Below, piece by piece: positions 11,016 through 20,802 of a stretch of DNA of 20,802 bases. Source of the stretch: Desulfocapsa sp. Lineage in GTDB: Bacteria > Desulfobacterota > Desulfobulbia > Desulfobulbales > Desulfocapsaceae. The notes below the pieces were generated by a model. It saw only the letters and a program-made list of their open reading frames with translations. It searched no databases and was not told the DNA's origin. The number at the start of each line of letters is the position of its first letter. The stretch's first letter is position 1. Both the position numbers and the translations under genes were made by a program. The stretch spans positions 1 to 20,802 of the forward strand of contig JAOZLI010000015.1 in NCBI GenBank assembly GCA_029934915.1, given 5' to 3'.

Positions 11016-11194
11016 TCGTAGTGAATCTCCCTGAACAAAGCATACCCACAAAAAACATCCTACCATGCTGATTTAACACGCTTTAATAGTATTTAAATAT
11101 TTCATTTCTTTGTTTATTTCTTTTACTTCAAAAAACCATACCATAACTCCAAAGAACGAAAAAATCATCATTAGCACGCCATTCCTGCTAGTTA

Positions 11195-11265
11195 GTACTT
11201 ATCCACACCTTTTTTCTCACCATGGCACCATATGTGCAATATCTCAAATTAAAGTGGATAAGTAC
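11195..11265. repeat. 12-bp inverted repeat with DnaA-box-like arms flanking the sigma-54 promoter
   Basis: GTACTTATCCAC (11195-11206) and GTGGATAAGTAC (11254-11265) are perfect reverse complements, 59 bp centre to centre. The left arm contains TTATCCACA (11199-11207), identical to the consensus DnaA box, and the right arm reads TTATCCACT on the minus strand, one mismatch away. The sigma-54 promoter candidate lies between them and the right arm touches the ribosome-binding site. They could be operator half-sites or DnaA sites; transposon ends are unlikely because no matching copy was seen downstream. Confidence 0.5.
11223..11238 (+). promoter_or_regulatory. sigma-54 (-24/-12) promoter candidate for the transposase-like/ftsH operon
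   Basis: TGGCACCATATGTGCA matches the sigma-54 consensus TGGCACG-N4-TTGCA except for C at position 7 and G for the first T of TTGCA; GG (11224-11225) and GC (11236-11237) are ten bases apart as required. Transcription would begin near 11249, about 29 bases before the ATG at 11278. The remaining 312-bp gap between the activator gene and this gene also contains the triple-arm element and an AT-rich stretch (11080-11110). Confidence 0.6.
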
Positions 11266-11277
11266 AAAGGAGAACAG

Positions 11278-12183
11278 ATGCAGGCCATAGTAACCCAAAA
11301 CATACGCTTTCCGGAGACCAGAGAGGAATTCAAAAAGCTGTTTCCTGATGAGGAAGCAAGCCTGCGATTTTTGTTTAACAAGCGCTGGCCCAAGGGTTTT
11401 GTATGTTCCTATTGTAACTGGCTCAACGCGGAACAACTCCCGGCAAAAACCATTACCTGCAGTCACTGTGGACACCCGACATCCATTACCACCAATACAG
11501 TAATGCATGGAACAAAAAAATCACTTTCTCAGTGGCTTATCTGTATCTGGTGGTTCACTGCAACAGAGGGTGGGCACAGTGCGAAGGATTTACAACGTCT
11601 TTTAAAACTTTCCAGTTATCAAACCGCCTGGACCTGGCTGCAAAAACTTCGTATGGCCATGTCTGTCTCAGACAACAGGCAATGCCGGGACACCGTTGAA
11701 ATTTCATCCGACACCATTTCACTGGGTGGAGAAACACGGGCTAAAGCACCTATTCTTGCAGCAGCTGAAATTATCCTTCCTGCAGGAATTACCGGTAGGA
11801 TCAAGATGAAATCTATTGGAACGCTAAATAGCAAGTCCGTGGGTAACTTCTTAAATGAACATATTTTACCAGGATCCTCACTGCTTATTCCTGATTCCGA
11901 ACCCTTTACAACAGGCGAACTAGAATCCTTTATCACCGTTCGTAGCGCAACAGTTGATCGCAGCAGGCAAATCATCAAGAGTTTTGAGATCTGGCTCAAC
12001 AAAATCCACAGGGGCGGAGTGGTTGCCAAACATCTGCAACTTTATCTTGATGAGTTTTGTTTTCGCAGTAATGCGGCCATGCTTCCAGACTCAGAGGCTA
12101 TTTTCAATCTTCTTCTCACAGGTGTGATCGGTAATAAACCACTGTCATACAAGAGTTTAACTTCAGAAGCAGCTAAGGGGTAG
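11278..12183 (+). CDS. ISXO2/IS1595-type transposase-like protein, probably domesticated
   Basis: A 301-residue protein. The N-terminal part has the IS1595-type zinc ribbon (C43-x2-C46 and C61-x2-C64, CSYCN...CSHCGH) followed by the helical W-rich region typical of the family (SQWLICIWWF). The DDE-like domain keeps candidate acidic residues D145 (SSDTISLGGE, two residues longer than the usual DETxxGG block) and D206 (LIPDSEPF replacing TDGWxxY), and the family signature KHLQLYLDEFCFRSN at 251-265; the third catalytic position looks changed. The start with AAAGGAG upstream is the ATG at 11278; the longer open frame back to 11110 covers the promoter region. The stop is only 3 bp before ftsH, leaving no room for a right-hand terminal repeat, so this is not a free insertion sequence. 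It probably acts as a DNA-binding or regulatory protein co-expressed with FtsH (inference). Confidence 0.82.
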   Translation: MQAIVTQNIRFPETREEFKKLFPDEEASLRFLFNKRWPKGFVCSYCNWLNAEQLPAKTITCSHCGHPTSITTNTVMHGTKKSLSQWLICIWWFTATEGGHSAKDLQRLLKLSSYQTAWTWLQKLRMAMSVSDNRQCRDTVEISSDTISLGGETRAKAPILAAAEIILPAGITGRIKMKSIGTLNSKSVGNFLNEHILPGSSLLIPDSEPFTTGELESFITVRSATVDRSRQIIKSFEIWLNKIHRGGVVAKHLQLYLDEFCFRSNAAMLPDSEAIFNLLLTGVIGNKPLSYKSLTSEAAKG

Positions 12184-14075: not shown

Positions 14076-14606
14076 ATGCAAACACGAAAAAAAATACTAA
14101 GGACAGCAATAGCCCTTACCACAGGCGCCTTATTGTTTGCTCCAGGACTTGCATTGGCAATGGATGCAGACGACGCACCAGAATCGATCACTATAGATTC
14201 AATGGCAAATTTATACTCAGCTGTTGAGTTTGATCACCTGATGCATACTGAATATGCAAGTTGTGCTGAATGTCATCATCACACAACGGGTGTCCCGGTC
14301 GCAGATCCAAACTGTATCAGATGCCATGCATATACTCCGGAGGGAGATGATGTAAGTTGTACGGGATGTCATGAAGCAAATCGATTTGATAAGGAATATC
14401 TGGACACCCTCAACGATCCTCAGATATATCATATTGATAAACCTGGATTAAAAGGAGCGTACCACCTCAACTGTATAGGATGTCATGAAGCCATTGACGG
14501 CCCCACGGGATGTCAGGATTGTCACACCATGACAGAGGCTGGAGAAGAACGGTTCGATACCGGAAAACACGCTCCAGCAGGCGGAAGTTCCGGGGCACAC
14601 CATTGA
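14076..14606 (+). CDS. Periplasmic five-heme class III-like cytochrome c
   Basis: A 176-residue exported cytochrome. The signal peptide runs to about residue 28 (LALA-MD). Five CxxCH haem-binding motifs are present: CAECH 63-67, CIRCH 80-84, CTGCH 95-99, CIGCH 133-137 and CQDCH 146-150, with extra histidines (FDHLMH, CHHH, YHI, AYH, GKH, HH at the end) able to supply the second axial ligands. The block FDHLMHTEYASCAECHHH is that of the cytochrome c3/c7 family, but canonical c3 has four haems, so this is an extended variant. It should carry electrons in the periplasm and exchange them with the ferredoxin-like subunit encoded next. A strong AAGGAGG site precedes the ATG. It begins the three-gene redox module after ftsH. 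Confidence 0.95.
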   Translation: MQTRKKILRTAIALTTGALLFAPGLALAMDADDAPESITIDSMANLYSAVEFDHLMHTEYASCAECHHHTTGVPVADPNCIRCHAYTPEGDDVSCTGCHEANRFDKEYLDTLNDPQIYHIDKPGLKGAYHLNCIGCHEAIDGPTGCQDCHTMTEAGEERFDTGKHAPAGGSSGAHH

Positions 14607-14641
14607 CCAGTATCCTGTAACCAGTTTCAAGAGAGGACAAT

Positions 14642-15610
14642 ATGAAGAAACTCAATCGTAGAAGTTTTATAAAAGGTGGCCTGGCAACGACAGCTGCAGC
14701 CGCCGTTTTAAAAGAAAAAACAAGCGTCGCATCTGGCGATTTTGATAACTATCCAGAAGGGATGGGTGTTATTGTAGATCTCACCCGCTGTGTTGGATGC
14801 AGATCCTGCGAAGCAGCATGTAACAAAGAGCAGGGACTCCCCGAGCCAGCAGAACCATTTGATGATTTTTCAGTATTTGATCAAATACATCATGGTCAGA
14901 AACGAAGGACTGACGAAAGCAAATACACAGTGGTAAACCGTTATGATCCCCCTGAAATTGATCATCCATTGTTTAGAAAGATTCAGTGTAATCACTGTAA
15001 TGAGCCAGCATGTCTCACATCATGTTTTGTTAATGCTTACACAAAAACACCCGAAGGGGCTGTTATTTATAACTCAAAGGTTTGTGTTGGCTGCAGGACC
15101 TGTATGGTTGCATGTCCGTTTTATATCCCAACATTTAAGTATTCCAAAGCGTTTACACCAAAGATTATGAAGTGCATTTTCTGTTATGACACTCGTTTGA
15201 AAAACGGTAAACCACCAGCTTGTGTCGAGGCCTGTCCTCAGGAAGCATTGACATTCGGAAAGCGTAAAGATGTTTTAAAAATAGGTAAACAACGTATTCG
15301 TGAGACTCCTGGTAAATATGTTGATCACATATACGGCGAACATGAGGTAGGTGGAACGGCCTGGATGTATCTCTCCAGCGTACCATTTGATAAAGTTGGC
15401 TTTGACACCCATGTACCAAAAGAGCCAATCATCAATTCCGTTAAAGAGTTTCTTGCCATGGTTCCCATGGTTCTTACTATCTGGCCAGGTCTCTTTGTAG
15501 GATTCCATTTACTTGCAACGCGAAAGGACAAGATTAAGGAACTGGAAATGGAAAAAGAAGCAAAAGCAAAAAAAGCCAACGAAAATGATAAGAAGGAGGA
15601 GCAGGTATGA
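14642..15610 (+). CDS. TAT-exported, membrane-anchored four-[4Fe-4S] ferredoxin subunit (HybA/HmcB-like)
   Basis: A 322-residue electron-transfer subunit. The twin-arginine signal is NRRSFIKGG at residues 5-13, so the folded protein is exported to the periplasmic side. Sixteen cysteines form four cluster-binding groups: C50/53/56/60, C116/119/124/128, C148/151/154/158 and C178/181/194/198, as in HybA, HmcB and DmsB-like proteins. A C-terminal membrane helix (about 271-291) followed by a lysine/glutamate-rich tail anchors it, as in HybA. It should pass electrons between the multihaem cytochrome and the NrfD-type membrane subunit. Its stop overlaps the next gene's start by 4 bp. No molybdopterin or hydrogenase catalytic subunit lies nearby, so it is probably a pure electron conduit. 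Confidence 0.95.
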   Translation: MKKLNRRSFIKGGLATTAAAAVLKEKTSVASGDFDNYPEGMGVIVDLTRCVGCRSCEAACNKEQGLPEPAEPFDDFSVFDQIHHGQKRRTDESKYTVVNRYDPPEIDHPLFRKIQCNHCNEPACLTSCFVNAYTKTPEGAVIYNSKVCVGCRTCMVACPFYIPTFKYSKAFTPKIMKCIFCYDTRLKNGKPPACVEACPQEALTFGKRKDVLKIGKQRIRETPGKYVDHIYGEHEVGGTAWMYLSSVPFDKVGFDTHVPKEPIINSVKEFLAMVPMVLTIWPGLFVGFHLLATRKDKIKELEMEKEAKAKKANENDKKEEQV

Positions 15611-16860
15611 AACTCTTTTCTACAGAAAGACCTGAAATTCCAATTGTCAATCACACAAAAGAAGATGGCTCTGCGTGGACCATTAAAGAAAAACTCTGGC
15701 TGGGACTCTCAGTCAATGAGTACAAAAAACAATTTTTCAGGAACCCGGTAAACTGGTTTATGATGATGATTTGTGCCATTGGCCTACCACTGATTCTTGG
15801 ACGTTACGCTTTTGGTCTCGGCTGGGTTACACACGCATCAAATGATTATCCTTGGGGTCTGTTCCTGGGATTTGGACTCTTTGGTATGGTTCCACTGTCT
15901 GCATCGGGATTTATGCTGGGCACCACGGTTGAGCTTTTTGGCAGAAAAGATTTCCATTCAATTGAACGTCTTGCTCTGTTAAACGGCCTGCTTGGTTATT
16001 TCTTTGCTGTTTTATTCCTGGAAGTCGATCTTGGTATGCCATGGCGCCTGCCCTACCCAATGTTTGTCTCTTTGGGACCTGCAGCTGTATTATTTCTTGT
16101 TGCCTGGCATGTTGCGACCTATCTCTCCGTGCAAATTGCAGAAGTTCTCCCCGCCCTTTTTGAATGGATGGGATGGCTCAAAGGAAAACGCATGATACGC
16201 AAATGGGTTCTTGGCCTGACCGTTGCAGGTATCATCCTCTCAACACTTCACCAGGGAGCTCTGGGTGCCTTGTTCACTTACGCACCTGCCAAGATTCATC
16301 CCTTGTGGGTATCAGCACAGTTTACCTGGATACACTTTTTCGTTTCATCTATTTTTGGTGGACTCTCCATGGTCATTATCGCCTCAACCCTGATCAAGAA
16401 CTATATGGGATGGCGTTGTGATGAGGAGTTCAAGAGTAATCTTGACTACGTTACCATCGGAATGGCGAAAGGTGCATCCCTTGCCATGATCACCTATCTT
16501 GTTATCAAGATTGTAGCCGTTGCTCATGATCAGGAATGGACTTATCTACTGACAGGATGGGGAAGTTATTATATGTTGGAGCTCACTGTCGCTGTTGTTC
16601 TGCCCATGTTTATGTTTGCCATTGGTGTGCGCAACAATTGGGTAACACTTATTAGAGCTGGTGCATTTATTGCGGCGCTTGGCATTATCTGGAACCGTCT
16701 TAACACTTCTCTGGTTTGTTTTAACTGGCAGATGTATCAAGAAATTCCTCATTGGAAGGAAGTGTGGATTACTGTTACTATCTATGCAATCTACTTTATG
16801 ACCTATCGTTTCATCGTCTATCGCCTGCCCATCGTTTATGAGTGGAAAGGAGAAAGATAA
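15607..16860 (+). CDS. NrfD/HybB-type quinone-interacting integral membrane subunit
   Basis: A 417-residue polytopic membrane protein with about ten hydrophobic helices, of the NrfD/PsrC superfamily and closest in appearance to HybB/HmcC. Helices include FMMMICAIGLPLILGRYAFGL, the block PWGLFLGFGLFGMVPLSASG, FFAVLFLEVDLGMPWRLPYP, and the C-terminal FIAALGIIWNRLNTSLV. Proteins of this group oxidise or reduce menaquinol and pass electrons to a periplasmic ferredoxin subunit, here encoded immediately upstream with a 4-bp overlap. It lacks haem motifs. Together with the cytochrome and ferredoxin it forms a minimal three-subunit module. Direction of electron flow and whether it translocates charge cannot be read from the sequence. 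Confidence 0.95.
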   Translation: MKLFSTERPEIPIVNHTKEDGSAWTIKEKLWLGLSVNEYKKQFFRNPVNWFMMMICAIGLPLILGRYAFGLGWVTHASNDYPWGLFLGFGLFGMVPLSASGFMLGTTVELFGRKDFHSIERLALLNGLLGYFFAVLFLEVDLGMPWRLPYPMFVSLGPAAVLFLVAWHVATYLSVQIAEVLPALFEWMGWLKGKRMIRKWVLGLTVAGIILSTLHQGALGALFTYAPAKIHPLWVSAQFTWIHFFVSSIFGGLSMVIIASTLIKNYMGWRCDEEFKSNLDYVTIGMAKGASLAMITYLVIKIVAVAHDQEWTYLLTGWGSYYMLELTVAVVLPMFMFAIGVRNNWVTLIRAGAFIAALGIIWNRLNTSLVCFNWQMYQEIPHWKEVWITVTIYAIYFMTYRFIVYRLPIVYEWKGER

Positions 16861-17014: not shown

Positions 17015-18454
17015 GTGAAAAAAATATTTTCTCAAATTTCATTAAAACGCGTTTTCTCCCTTTTTACTTTTGCTACCATCGGCTTACTTGTACTGGTAAT
17101 ACTTTTAGCAGGAAAACAATATCTACTCTACCGCCAGTGTGACAAACTCGTTGATTCCAGTCAGCACCTTCTATTTCAATTTACTGGAATAAAAGAACAT
17201 ATCAATGAGACACTGCTTCAGGACAAAACATTAAACAACGCAGAAATCATAAAAGAAATTCAAACTCTGGATAGCGATCTAACCCTCATTCTGGAAGATG
17301 TGTTGATTCCGGAAGAATTCAAACTTACCTTTATAAGTCAGGTGGATCTTGTTAATCTCACAGTAACCCTTCGCAATATACAAAACGATGACAAAGCAAC
17401 CGGATCTGAGTATCCTGCAAAACTCACCACACAATTACGGCAAATACATTCCAAACTCACTGCCTTTAATCAATTAATAACCCGTTATACCCAAAAACAA
17501 CTCCTGGGACTTCATAGAGCTTTAGTTGGCCTGCTTGCCATAATTATAGCCATGGTGAGTATTATGCTGATGGTGATCAACCAGTATATTACCTCTCCTA
17601 TCATTCATTATTGTCGGGCCATCTTCCCCGAAGAAAAAGATACCATATCTTTGTTTACTCTCCATAAAAGCATCGAGAATATGGCGACCCAACAACCACA
17701 AGAAAAATCTGTTCAGCCAAACAAAAAGAATATTGCTGAACTCTCTCGCCTTTACCGAAACAGCAGCATAGGAAACATGTTTGGTGGAATCAGTAACGAA
17801 TTGACCAATCGCTCTAACGGTATAATCAATTATACCCAGGCACTTCTTGATTTAAGTGACGACCTGCAGCTTGACCACGACACAAAAACATTGCTGCAAA
17901 AATTATTTATTGAAGAAAAAAAGATGGCAGAACTGTTAACACACATGATTCAATTTACCGGTGGCAGTGATAATGGTATGGCCAAAAGCCTCTCCTTAGA
18001 TGACATTTTTAGTCATATTGACACATTGGTTCAGGGAACACTTAAAAATGACAGAATCAATTTGCTTGTTACACTTGATGATCCGGCACGAACCTTGAAT
18101 TATCATGTCAATGATCTGCAACTCGTTATCCTCTCAGCTCTGCAGAATAGTAGAATCGCACTCAAGAGAAAAGATACTGAAACAACCGAAGAGATGCAAA
18201 AACAGATCGATATTTCCGTTGATGATATAAGCTCTACCGAAAAAATAAGTATCACCATCCGAGATAACGGCAGCCCATGGGAATTAAACAGTACGCAGAT
18301 GGCTAGCGTATCTGACAGGCCATGGCATAATATGCATTTCTGCCATGATTTCTTACAGACTTTCAACGGTGAACTTCATGTCACACGAGAACCGGATAAG
18401 AGCAACTTGTGTGTAATCGAAATTCCTCTCCATGATAAAAAGGACAATGCTTAA
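17015..18454 (+). CDS. Membrane histidine-kinase homologue lacking the phospho-acceptor His (pseudo-kinase)
   Basis: A 479-residue protein with two membrane helices (about 16-36 and 169-189) around a helical periplasmic sensor domain of some 130 residues. The cytoplasmic part aligns with the GAF-PAS kinase at 5935: RNSSIGNMFGGISNELTNRSNGIINYTQ corresponds to its H-box, but the histidine is N261 here, while the following glutamate and GIINY are kept. The ATPase-like part retains an N-box-like LQNSRIAL with N378 and DNG at 417-419, but G1 reads DNGSPW, and the F and G2 boxes are replaced. It should therefore not autophosphorylate and may not bind ATP. The start is GTG with GGGAG upstream. It follows the redox module and overlaps the next small gene by one base. 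A sensory scaffold or a regulator of another kinase is the best guess. Confidence 0.88.
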   Translation: MKKIFSQISLKRVFSLFTFATIGLLVLVILLAGKQYLLYRQCDKLVDSSQHLLFQFTGIKEHINETLLQDKTLNNAEIIKEIQTLDSDLTLILEDVLIPEEFKLTFISQVDLVNLTVTLRNIQNDDKATGSEYPAKLTTQLRQIHSKLTAFNQLITRYTQKQLLGLHRALVGLLAIIIAMVSIMLMVINQYITSPIIHYCRAIFPEEKDTISLFTLHKSIENMATQQPQEKSVQPNKKNIAELSRLYRNSSIGNMFGGISNELTNRSNGIINYTQALLDLSDDLQLDHDTKTLLQKLFIEEKKMAELLTHMIQFTGGSDNGMAKSLSLDDIFSHIDTLVQGTLKNDRINLLVTLDDPARTLNYHVNDLQLVILSALQNSRIALKRKDTETTEEMQKQIDISVDDISSTEKISITIRDNGSPWELNSTQMASVSDRPWHNMHFCHDFLQTFNGELHVTREPDKSNLCVIEIPLHDKKDNA

Positions 18455-18707: not shown

Positions 18708-18779
18708 AAGATAAACAGTTATTCATCGCAACACCAAAGCGTCCAATGAATTCCTATTTAGTCAGAGGTGAGCCCCAAA

Positions 18780-19910
18780 ATGTCTCAGCAAAAAAACAGT
18801 TTCCTTTTGCTATTGCTATTTGTTCTACTTCCCGTCACAGCAGCTATATCCCACCCGACCAACAGTCAATTTATCACTCCTGAAGAGTATCTTAAACTCC
18901 ACCCTGAAGAACAGGAAATCAGTAAAAAATTCAGCAAAACTGTAAAAGAACTTCCACATCCCCTTCGCAAGGGGCAGCAGAAGAAAACGGTTTCCATAGC
19001 CTTTGTCTACCCGGGCGAACAGGCGTCGGATTACTGGCAGCGCAGTGTCCGTTCGTTTGTTGCACGCATGGACGCATTACAGATTGACTACAAACTGGAC
19101 AAATATTTTTCAAAGGCTGGTGGAATTGAAATCCGCAAACAGGAACAGCAACTGAAAATCGCTCTAGACAAGGATCCCGACTACCTGGTTTTCACCCTTG
19201 ACGTAAATCAGCACCAACGACTGATTGAACGTATACTGGCCAAGGGACGTCCCCATCTCATTCTACAAAATATCACGACACCGCTCTCCATCTGGGAAGG
19301 CAATCAGCCATTGTATGTAGGGTTTGACCATGCTATCGGTACCCGCATCCTTGCCAACTATTTTTTAGACCGGAAAACTGACAATGGGACATACGGCCTC
19401 CTTTATTTTTCCCAGGGGTATGTCAGTTCCATGCGGGGAGATACATTTCATACATTTATGCGTGAGGGAAAAGGATATGAACTCTCAGCAGCATATTACA
19501 CGGGAGGACAACGCGAAAAATCCCGTAAAGCTGCAGAACAACTGATACGGCAGGATGCTAATCTTCGGCTCATTTATGCCTGTGCCACCGATGTTGCTCT
19601 TGGTGCCACCGATGCCCTGCGTGATGCGGGACTGACTGGGAAAATTATGGTTAACGGATGGGGAGGCGGCAGTGCAGAGCTTGCAGCCATAGCACGAGGA
19701 GAACTTACTGCCACTGTTATGCGGATGAATGACGACAACGGGGTAGCCATGGCAGAGGCCATACGATTCCAACTGCTCGGGAAGGGACAGGAGATTCCCA
19801 CCGTGTTCAGTGGTGACTTCGTCCTGATTACCAGTGAAACATCTGAGGAAAAAATCCAGGCAGCAAAAAAACAGGCATTCCGCTACTCCGGCATCCCTGA
19901 CAATCTATGA
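18780..19910 (+). CDS. luxP: LuxP-type periplasmic autoinducer-2 receptor
   Basis: A 376-residue periplasmic binding protein (signal peptide to about A22) that aligns with Vibrio harveyi LuxP over its whole length, including the N-terminal segment before the sugar-binding fold. Shared blocks are VYPGEQASDYW, YLVFTLD, LILQNITTP, YVGFDHA, GYVSSMRGDTF, IYACATDVALGA, GWGGGSAEL and VMRMNDDNGVAMAEAI. Counting from the ATG at 18780, residues matching the known AI-2 contacts are Q81, S83, W86, N164, R219, T270, D271, W294 and R315; the two arginines are those that face the borate group in Vibrio. A GTG at 18768 is possible, but AGAGGTGAG lies at proper distance from the ATG. The gene overlaps the LuxQ-like gene by 4 bp, as expected of a luxPQ operon. 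It is far from a generic sugar-binding protein in motif content. Confidence 0.93.
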   Translation: MSQQKNSFLLLLLFVLLPVTAAISHPTNSQFITPEEYLKLHPEEQEISKKFSKTVKELPHPLRKGQQKKTVSIAFVYPGEQASDYWQRSVRSFVARMDALQIDYKLDKYFSKAGGIEIRKQEQQLKIALDKDPDYLVFTLDVNQHQRLIERILAKGRPHLILQNITTPLSIWEGNQPLYVGFDHAIGTRILANYFLDRKTDNGTYGLLYFSQGYVSSMRGDTFHTFMREGKGYELSAAYYTGGQREKSRKAAEQLIRQDANLRLIYACATDVALGATDALRDAGLTGKIMVNGWGGGSAELAAIARGELTATVMRMNDDNGVAMAEAIRFQLLGKGQEIPTVFSGDFVLITSETSEEKIQAAKKQAFRYSGIPDNL

Positions 19911-20802
19911 TTCCATTTCTCATGCAAAAGACAGAACACAGTTTTACAACTCTTCTCTCCCGTTATTTTTCCCTGCTGCTTCTATTATTGCTAGCAGGAT
20001 TGTTGTTCTGGACGTATATATCCACCAGCACTACCCTGCAAAAACAGCAACGGCTCAATATCAACCTGAACAACAAAAACAGTGCGAGAGTCCTTGACAC
20101 GACCCGTCAGACTCTGTGTAATACTCTGCAACAAGTAACCACGGCCTTCTCCCAGCTTCCCGTACCATGCCCGCAAAACACTCATGAACAGTTGACTCAG
20201 GTCATCAATACCATGCAGGACACGCTCCACCTGGATCTTGTACGATTCATCAGCGCAGACCAGCAACAGATTATATCCGCAGATTCACCATTCTTCACTT
20301 TTCATGGTTCAGAACAGTTGTTTACAAAGGATAAGGATAAATATATTGATACTACCCACCTTCTTTCCTTTGGTACCCCGGATAATCCCCTGTGGCTGTT
20401 CATTACAGGGAAACGTGTTATTCAGAAAGAGAGCGGCAAAGTATTGGGAATACTGATAGGCGGCATTGTTATCAATGATAATATCCCACTGGCAAGAGAG
20501 ATACTTCAGTACTCGAACGCTGAATATGCAGTTCTCCAGATCGATGGGCACCTCCTCAGCAGTAACAGGCCTCTGCCTGAGTCCCTGAGGAACATTGCAG
20601 AGAGTACATCCATCCCCCTTACCAGAAGCAGCAAGCAGATTGCAGGAAAGAACCAGCAAATGGTGATCAGTCGCTATGAATACACTCTTGGCAATGATCA
20701 ATCACTCTTCGTTCTTCTTTTCTACAAGGACACAATGCAGATGGAGATACAGCAATCCTTTCTCCGTTCAGGGGCTATTATCTTTTTAGCAACAGCTTGT
20801 CT
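19907..20802 (+). CDS. luxQ: LuxQ-like membrane sensor (partial, runs off the window)
   Basis: The first 298 residues of a membrane sensor, truncated at the right edge. A membrane helix (about 18-38, FSLLLLLLAGLLFWTYI) is followed by a periplasmic domain of about 245 residues and the start of a second helix (GAIIFLATAC). The stretch WLFITGKRVIQKESGKVLGILIGGIVINDNIPLAREIL parallels the second PAS-like lobe of Vibrio LuxQ, where VRRVPI, STGEVLGF and VVLDNNFALMEKL occupy the same places. The ATG overlaps the LuxP-like stop as ATGA. The kinase and receiver domains expected of LuxQ lie beyond the window and are not seen, so the hybrid-kinase nature is inferred. Alone, the periplasmic similarity is moderate; with LuxP next to it the call is firm. 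Confidence 0.8.
   Translation, partial: MIPFLMQKTEHSFTTLLSRYFSLLLLLLLAGLLFWTYISTSTTLQKQQRLNINLNNKNSARVLDTTRQTLCNTLQQVTTAFSQLPVPCPQNTHEQLTQVINTMQDTLHLDLVRFISADQQQIISADSPFFTFHGSEQLFTKDKDKYIDTTHLLSFGTPDNPLWLFITGKRVIQKESGKVLGILIGGIVINDNIPLAREILQYSNAEYAVLQIDGHLLSSNRPLPESLRNIAESTSIPLTRSSKQIAGKNQQMVISRYEYTLGNDQSLFVLLFYKDTMQMEIQQSFLRSGAIIFLATAC

Follow-up and report, generated by a model that had tools for sequence, protein, structure and literature searches.

The 20,802-bp stretch analysed here (hereafter the window, the whole of contig G000:C64) belongs to a Desulfocapsa sp. metagenome-assembled genome (MAG) and ends in a luxP-type gene for an autoinducer-2 (AI-2)-binding protein followed by a luxQ-like gene. 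The luxP gene, assigned by sequence match and pocket residues, lies at 18780–19910 on the forward strand and encodes 376 amino acids (aa), with a hydrophobic N-terminal signal peptide visible by inspection. The longest open reading frame (ORF) spans 18768–19910 (+, 380 aa); the start is most likely the ATG at 18780, as in the preliminary description, downstream of the apparent Shine-Dalgarno-like AGAGGTGAG (18764–18772, +), which includes the alternative GTG at 18768. In a phmmer search of Protein Data Bank (PDB) chains, LuxP matched residues 39–374 of the 380-aa ORF (316 bits, E 2.8e-93). The four PDB LuxP sequences fell between 2.8e-93 and 3.1e-93, and the first non-LuxP chain followed at 2.1e-10 (43.6 bits), bearing out the claimed end-to-end likeness to Vibrio LuxP. 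The protein is 45.2% identical to LuxP of V. campbellii over 356 aligned columns, compared with 16–19% for E. coli LsrB, RbsB and AlsB. By sequence membership, the product is a LuxP.

The luxQ-like gene begins within the luxP stop. Its ATG at 19907 and the luxP stop at 19908–19910 form an ATGA (19907–19910, +), the 4-bp overlap described earlier, and translational coupling of the two genes is likely. The contig ends within the gene, of which the first 298 codons are present (19907–20802, +; ORF, PDB, Pfam and NCBIfam matches). These encode a predicted first membrane helix (about residues 12–42, 19940–20032, +; hydropathy and model), a periplasmic double-Cache domain of LuxQ type (about residues 43–275, 20033–20731, +) and, according to the model, the probable start of a second membrane helix, at which the contig ends (about residues 276–298, 20732–20802, +). 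The periplasmic region matches LuxQ-periplasm PF09308 (38.2 bits, Pfam cut-off 25.7) and PDB entry 3c30 (E 1.4e-4), and its predicted fold resembles LuxQ in structure comparison, in agreement with the resemblance noted beforehand. It is 35% identical to the equivalent domain in one genus-mate (G018) and 38% identical to that in another (G015). The Vibrio LuxQ equivalog NF041947 (NCBIfam) gives 40.1 bits on 298 residues, where more than 1200 are required and a fragment cannot reach the cut-off. We do not file the partner as Vibrio LuxQ; judged by sequence and modelled fold, its sensor domain is of the LuxQ type. The receptor had been called complete; given that the window is an entire contig, this holds for LuxP and not for the luxQ-like gene.

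The residues that hydrogen-bond AI-2 in structure 1JX6 are listed in PMC9687752 as Q77, S79, W82, N159, R215, T266 and R310 (V. harveyi numbering). All seven are kept in the aligned window LuxP, as are D267 and W289, and position S265 is alanine, just as the preliminary description had it: contacts retained, with only the serine before Thr-Asp replaced. Counted from the ATG at 18780, R215 and R310 correspond to R219 and R315 of the window protein. Of the seven, LsrB keeps none, RbsB one and AlsB two. Because both anion-facing arginines are kept, the ligand is probably the borate form of AI-2. A search for luxS, proposed in the preliminary description, found none in the host genome, which is 83% complete. 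S-adenosylhomocysteine (SAH) hydrolase is the usual alternative to luxS; its family, PF05221, was likewise not found there, and this enzyme was dropped as an explanation for the absent luxS. With no luxS detected, the bacterium probably listens to AI-2 made by its neighbours, and the pair is not filed as a Vibrio circuit, in which luxS lies in the same genome.

The best explanation of the locus, and one we consider likely, is a LuxPQ-type AI-2 receptor that combines LuxP with a LuxQ-like hybrid kinase and responds to AI-2 from neighbours. Periplasmic LuxP would close on AI-2 while seated on the double-Cache domain of its LuxQ-like membrane partner, the product of the adjacent gene, and would thereby switch the partner's cytoplasmic output. 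That output is most likely a hybrid histidine kinase that passes the signal into a phosphorelay. Several points weigh against this interpretation. Across 202 family rows (the window, G009, 80 loci and 120 proteins, the best 120 of 1404; the latter two sets overlap, and three Vibrio rows are excluded), R215, T266, W289 and R310 never vary, and position 265 holds S in 159, A in 32 and T in 11. The homologues, however, were retrieved by words they have in common with the query, and some of those words include pocket residues, so that these counts overstate conservation. The LuxQ-like domain is diverged, with 10–19% identity to solved LuxQ, and the contig end removes all output domains of its gene from view. 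Given the 83% completeness and the equally missing SAH hydrolase, the failure to detect luxS carries little weight on its own.

If AI-2 were not the ligand, the LuxP/LuxQ-like pair would sense some other small polyol or sugar. The window LuxP does fall within Peripla_BP_4 (Pfam), a superfamily whose members bind sugars, and Ser265 is replaced; yet all seven hydrogen-bonding residues are intact, and Ala265 also occurs in a Vibrio LuxP, that of Vibrio sp. THAF190c. In the phylogeny that had been suggested as a check, the window LuxP falls with Vibrio LuxP, and a branch with support of 99 separates the LuxP family from RbsB, AlsB and LsrB (only three outgroup rows, on very long branches). We regard a different ligand as unlikely.

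LuxPQ had been introduced as the receptor of Vibrionales. This view is unsupported or outdated, since LuxP outside Vibrio was published in 2008 (PMC2561040) and none of the loci in our survey of relatives (80 listed of 86 found) is titled Vibrio. The loci come from Thermodesulfobacteriota, Pseudomonadota, Campylobacterota, Deferribacterota, Bdellovibrionota and Cloacimonadota. A LuxQ-periplasm gene lies directly beside luxP in 69 of 80, as detected with hidden Markov models built in this analysis; being built from those partners, they are not an independent test for them. PF09308 scored above cut-off in 30 of the 32 downstream partners run, the others being L067 and the part of L079 after an in-frame stop. 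Of the remaining 11 loci, three end at a contig edge and eight (Motilimonas, Psychromonas and one Methylocystaceae) lack such a neighbour. The 69 partners comprise 25 kinases without and 10 with a receiver, 20 GGDEF-EAL proteins, two GGDEF proteins and one SpoIIE protein (L003), with no output found in nine and two cut; GGDEF-EAL or GGDEF outputs (22/69) occur for example at L009, L012, L016, L024, L055 and L063. On a quick LuxP tree, with output classes and luxS states assigned by hand, we count at least six changes among kinase, GGDEF and SpoIIE, or ten if "none" is included.

Some of these partners show further peculiarities. No output domain was recognised in the LuxQ-periplasm proteins of Oceanimonas and Oceanisphaera (L060, L062, L066, L075; L068, L069, L076), whose relatives L024 and L045 carry GGDEF-EAL. 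In Denitrovibrio, a LuxQ-periplasm-GGDEF-EAL frame (L079:7047-10145) is interrupted by an in-frame stop.

Such diversity allows that the pair is real and that the cut gene carries a cyclic di-GMP (c-di-GMP) or SpoIIE domain in place of a kinase, given GGDEF-EAL, GGDEF and SpoIIE in 20, two and one of the 69 partners. The nearest readable partners, however, both from the same genus (G018 and G015), are hybrid histidine kinases with receivers, and five of the six readable Thermodesulfobacteriota partners among the 80 loci are kinases, the sixth being SpoIIE. A non-kinase output is improbable here. Locus L001 of Desulfocapsa sp. Sva_acohol_bin16 lies within the G018 stretch; at the G015 locus (L109), luxP is cut by the contig end and a separate receiver gene follows the hybrid kinase. 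A search with the LuxQ sensor domain of G015 recovered two proteins, the query and an 840-aa hybrid kinase with a LuxQ-periplasm domain. The C-terminal part of the G018 LuxQ matched 83 kinase-like places in the genome that carries the window. Two of these at contig edges, C522 (HATPase-REC) and C438 (histidine kinase), were considered as the rest of luxQ and left unassigned, as longer paralogues score higher.

We also surveyed luxS in the genomes with LuxP loci (77 of 79 loci, with L071 left out for sharing its contig with L029; many of the genomes are MAGs). It was present in 38 of the 77, counting a partial one in G018: 27 of 28 Gammaproteobacteria, 9 of 9 Campylobacterota, 0 of 27 Alphaproteobacteria, 2 of 7 Thermodesulfobacteriota and 0 of 6 in other groups. 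As luxS is generally missing from Alphaproteobacteria and many of the genomes are MAGs, its absence follows lineage rather than LuxP. Within the family, luxS occurs in 4 of 93 genomes, among which G018 alone also has LuxP; its luxS match (L112:6146-6496) covers the later part only (residues about 59–162 of the aligned relatives). Taken together, we lean slightly towards viewing LuxP and the LuxQ double-Cache domain as an old, portable two-part AI-2 sensor of six phyla, with Vibrio as one twig, whose output has changed six times or more (histidine kinase, GGDEF/GGDEF-EAL, SpoIIE), and which may serve listening only in Alphaproteobacteria (luxS 0/27) and in most of the few LuxP-bearing Desulfobacterota (2/7).

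Of the 93 genomes of the family, 6 have a strong LuxP match, and all 6 belong to the window's genus, one of 18 genera and represented by 20 genomes. Among 247 genomes sampled from the phylum, the one carrying the window was alone in reaching 1e-50 or better. Within the genus, luxP is intact in G000, G018 and G009, cut by contig ends in G013 and G015, and broken in G008, where pieces of luxP precede what is left of a receiver domain resembling the end of the G018 LuxQ (L111:5281-6479), apparently a decaying luxPQ locus. Nine more family genomes gave weak matches only (E 2.6e-7 or worse), which we interpret as ordinary binding proteins. Two LuxP lineages seem to be present in the genus, as the G009 protein falls outside the window's clade and has a different neighbourhood, with kinases on both sides. 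A lipobox-like Cys signal (by pattern) is present in 33 of 120 LuxP relatives (best 120 of 1404), including 20 of the closest 40 and P0002; P0001 (LAAGC) is narrowly outside the pattern. The window LuxP has none, and its membrane anchoring may differ from that of these close relatives.

The preliminary description proposed that the pair may have been gained by transfer. Patchiness in the family suggests gain or loss, but recent acquisition from Vibrio is very unlikely. In the quick tree (128 rows), the window lies in a 36-row clade (support 100) nested in a less well supported group made up mainly of Desulfobacterota (52 rows, 87), while Vibrio groups with Oceanospirillaceae, Psychromonas and Motilimonas (15 rows, 97). 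In a careful tree (46 rows, deeper branches weak), the window joins Desulfocapsa-type proteins (12 rows, 100/100), with Vibrio placed elsewhere beside Psychromonas, Motiliproteus and Motilimonas (93/91). Constraining the window clade with Vibrio costs 18.8 log units and is not rejected (p-AU 0.069); the G+C of the stretch is ordinary.

Elsewhere in the window, the segments 14076–16860 and 17015–18454 cover HmcB- and HmcC-like genes (below NCBIfam cut-offs), a short multihaem cytochrome (176 aa) upstream of them and, after them, a gene whose only histidine-kinase ATPase match is weak. An IS1595-family transposase gene (11110–12183) and two NtrC-type regulators are also encoded. We found no RNA family, tRNA or phage match in the window; promoter and terminator counts were no better than chance, and a repeat search was uninformative. 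The Hmc-like genes and the identity of the genus-mate G018 fit the sulfur-metabolising deltaproteobacterium originally envisaged. Although the MAG (3.06 Mb) is in 606 contigs with 3% contamination, misbinning of the contig from another organism is highly improbable, as the Hmc-like genes share the contig with luxP and the closest named LuxP relative among the matches listed is from the same genus.

The pair shares with Vibrio LuxP-LuxQ (V. harveyi/campbellii) a nearly end-to-end LuxP, the AI-2 contacts, the LuxQ periplasmic fold and the luxP-luxQ order with overlap or close spacing (three Vibrio loci), and differs in the sequence identities given above and in lacking a detected luxS. LsrB is likewise a periplasmic AI-2-binding protein but is 16% identical, has none of the LuxP contact residues and is transporter-linked. 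The double-Cache membrane sensors PctA and TlpQ (PMC7584622) and AsrK (PMC11796354) are described as binding AI-2 directly, whereas the window system is predicted to bind it through a separate LuxP.

LuxP outside Vibrio is already known in kind, though not uniformly recognised. LuxP homologues of Desulfovibrio, Desulfuromonas and Oceanospirillales, some of them from deltaproteobacteria as here, appear in PMC2561040 (2008) and PMC5187520 (2016); the 2008 cases lack luxS, and that paper already proposed the listening idea. The 2008 paper names no luxQ partner of Dde_3311 and describes PAS-domain regulators in other cases, whereas the window luxP adjoins a LuxQ-type periplasmic domain. LuxP and LuxQ have been named in Desulfovibrio, with LuxQ matched over 31% of its length (PMC5187520, PMC8586430). 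A 2025 paper covers 267 LuxP proteins and found AI-2 binding for the three that it sampled, which came from Proteobacteria and Deferribacterota (PMC12268683), and D. vulgaris is described as responding to AI-2 without luxS, lsrB or luxP (PMC7845633). LuxP is still given as Vibrio-only in passages of PMC7584622 and PMC11796354 (2025: "only in Vibrio spp."). The wiring of the pair to differing outputs in other bacteria looks less explored: a 2016 Cache survey lists 112 kinases and one c-di-GMP protein among 115 LuxQ-periplasm proteins (PMC4822843, Table 1), and in searches of an open-access library we found no paper that describes GGDEF-EAL or SpoIIE outputs on LuxQ-periplasm proteins encoded beside LuxP. 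AI-2 is linked to c-di-GMP through other receptors, AsrK and YeaJ (PMC11796354), so the link itself is not new; a LuxP route would be. The window pair supports AI-2 reception by apparent non-makers of AI-2, here in a sulfur-cycling lineage, and yields the testable claim that one AI-2 sensing module may act, according to the host, on phosphorelays, on c-di-GMP turnover or on a SpoIIE phosphatase.
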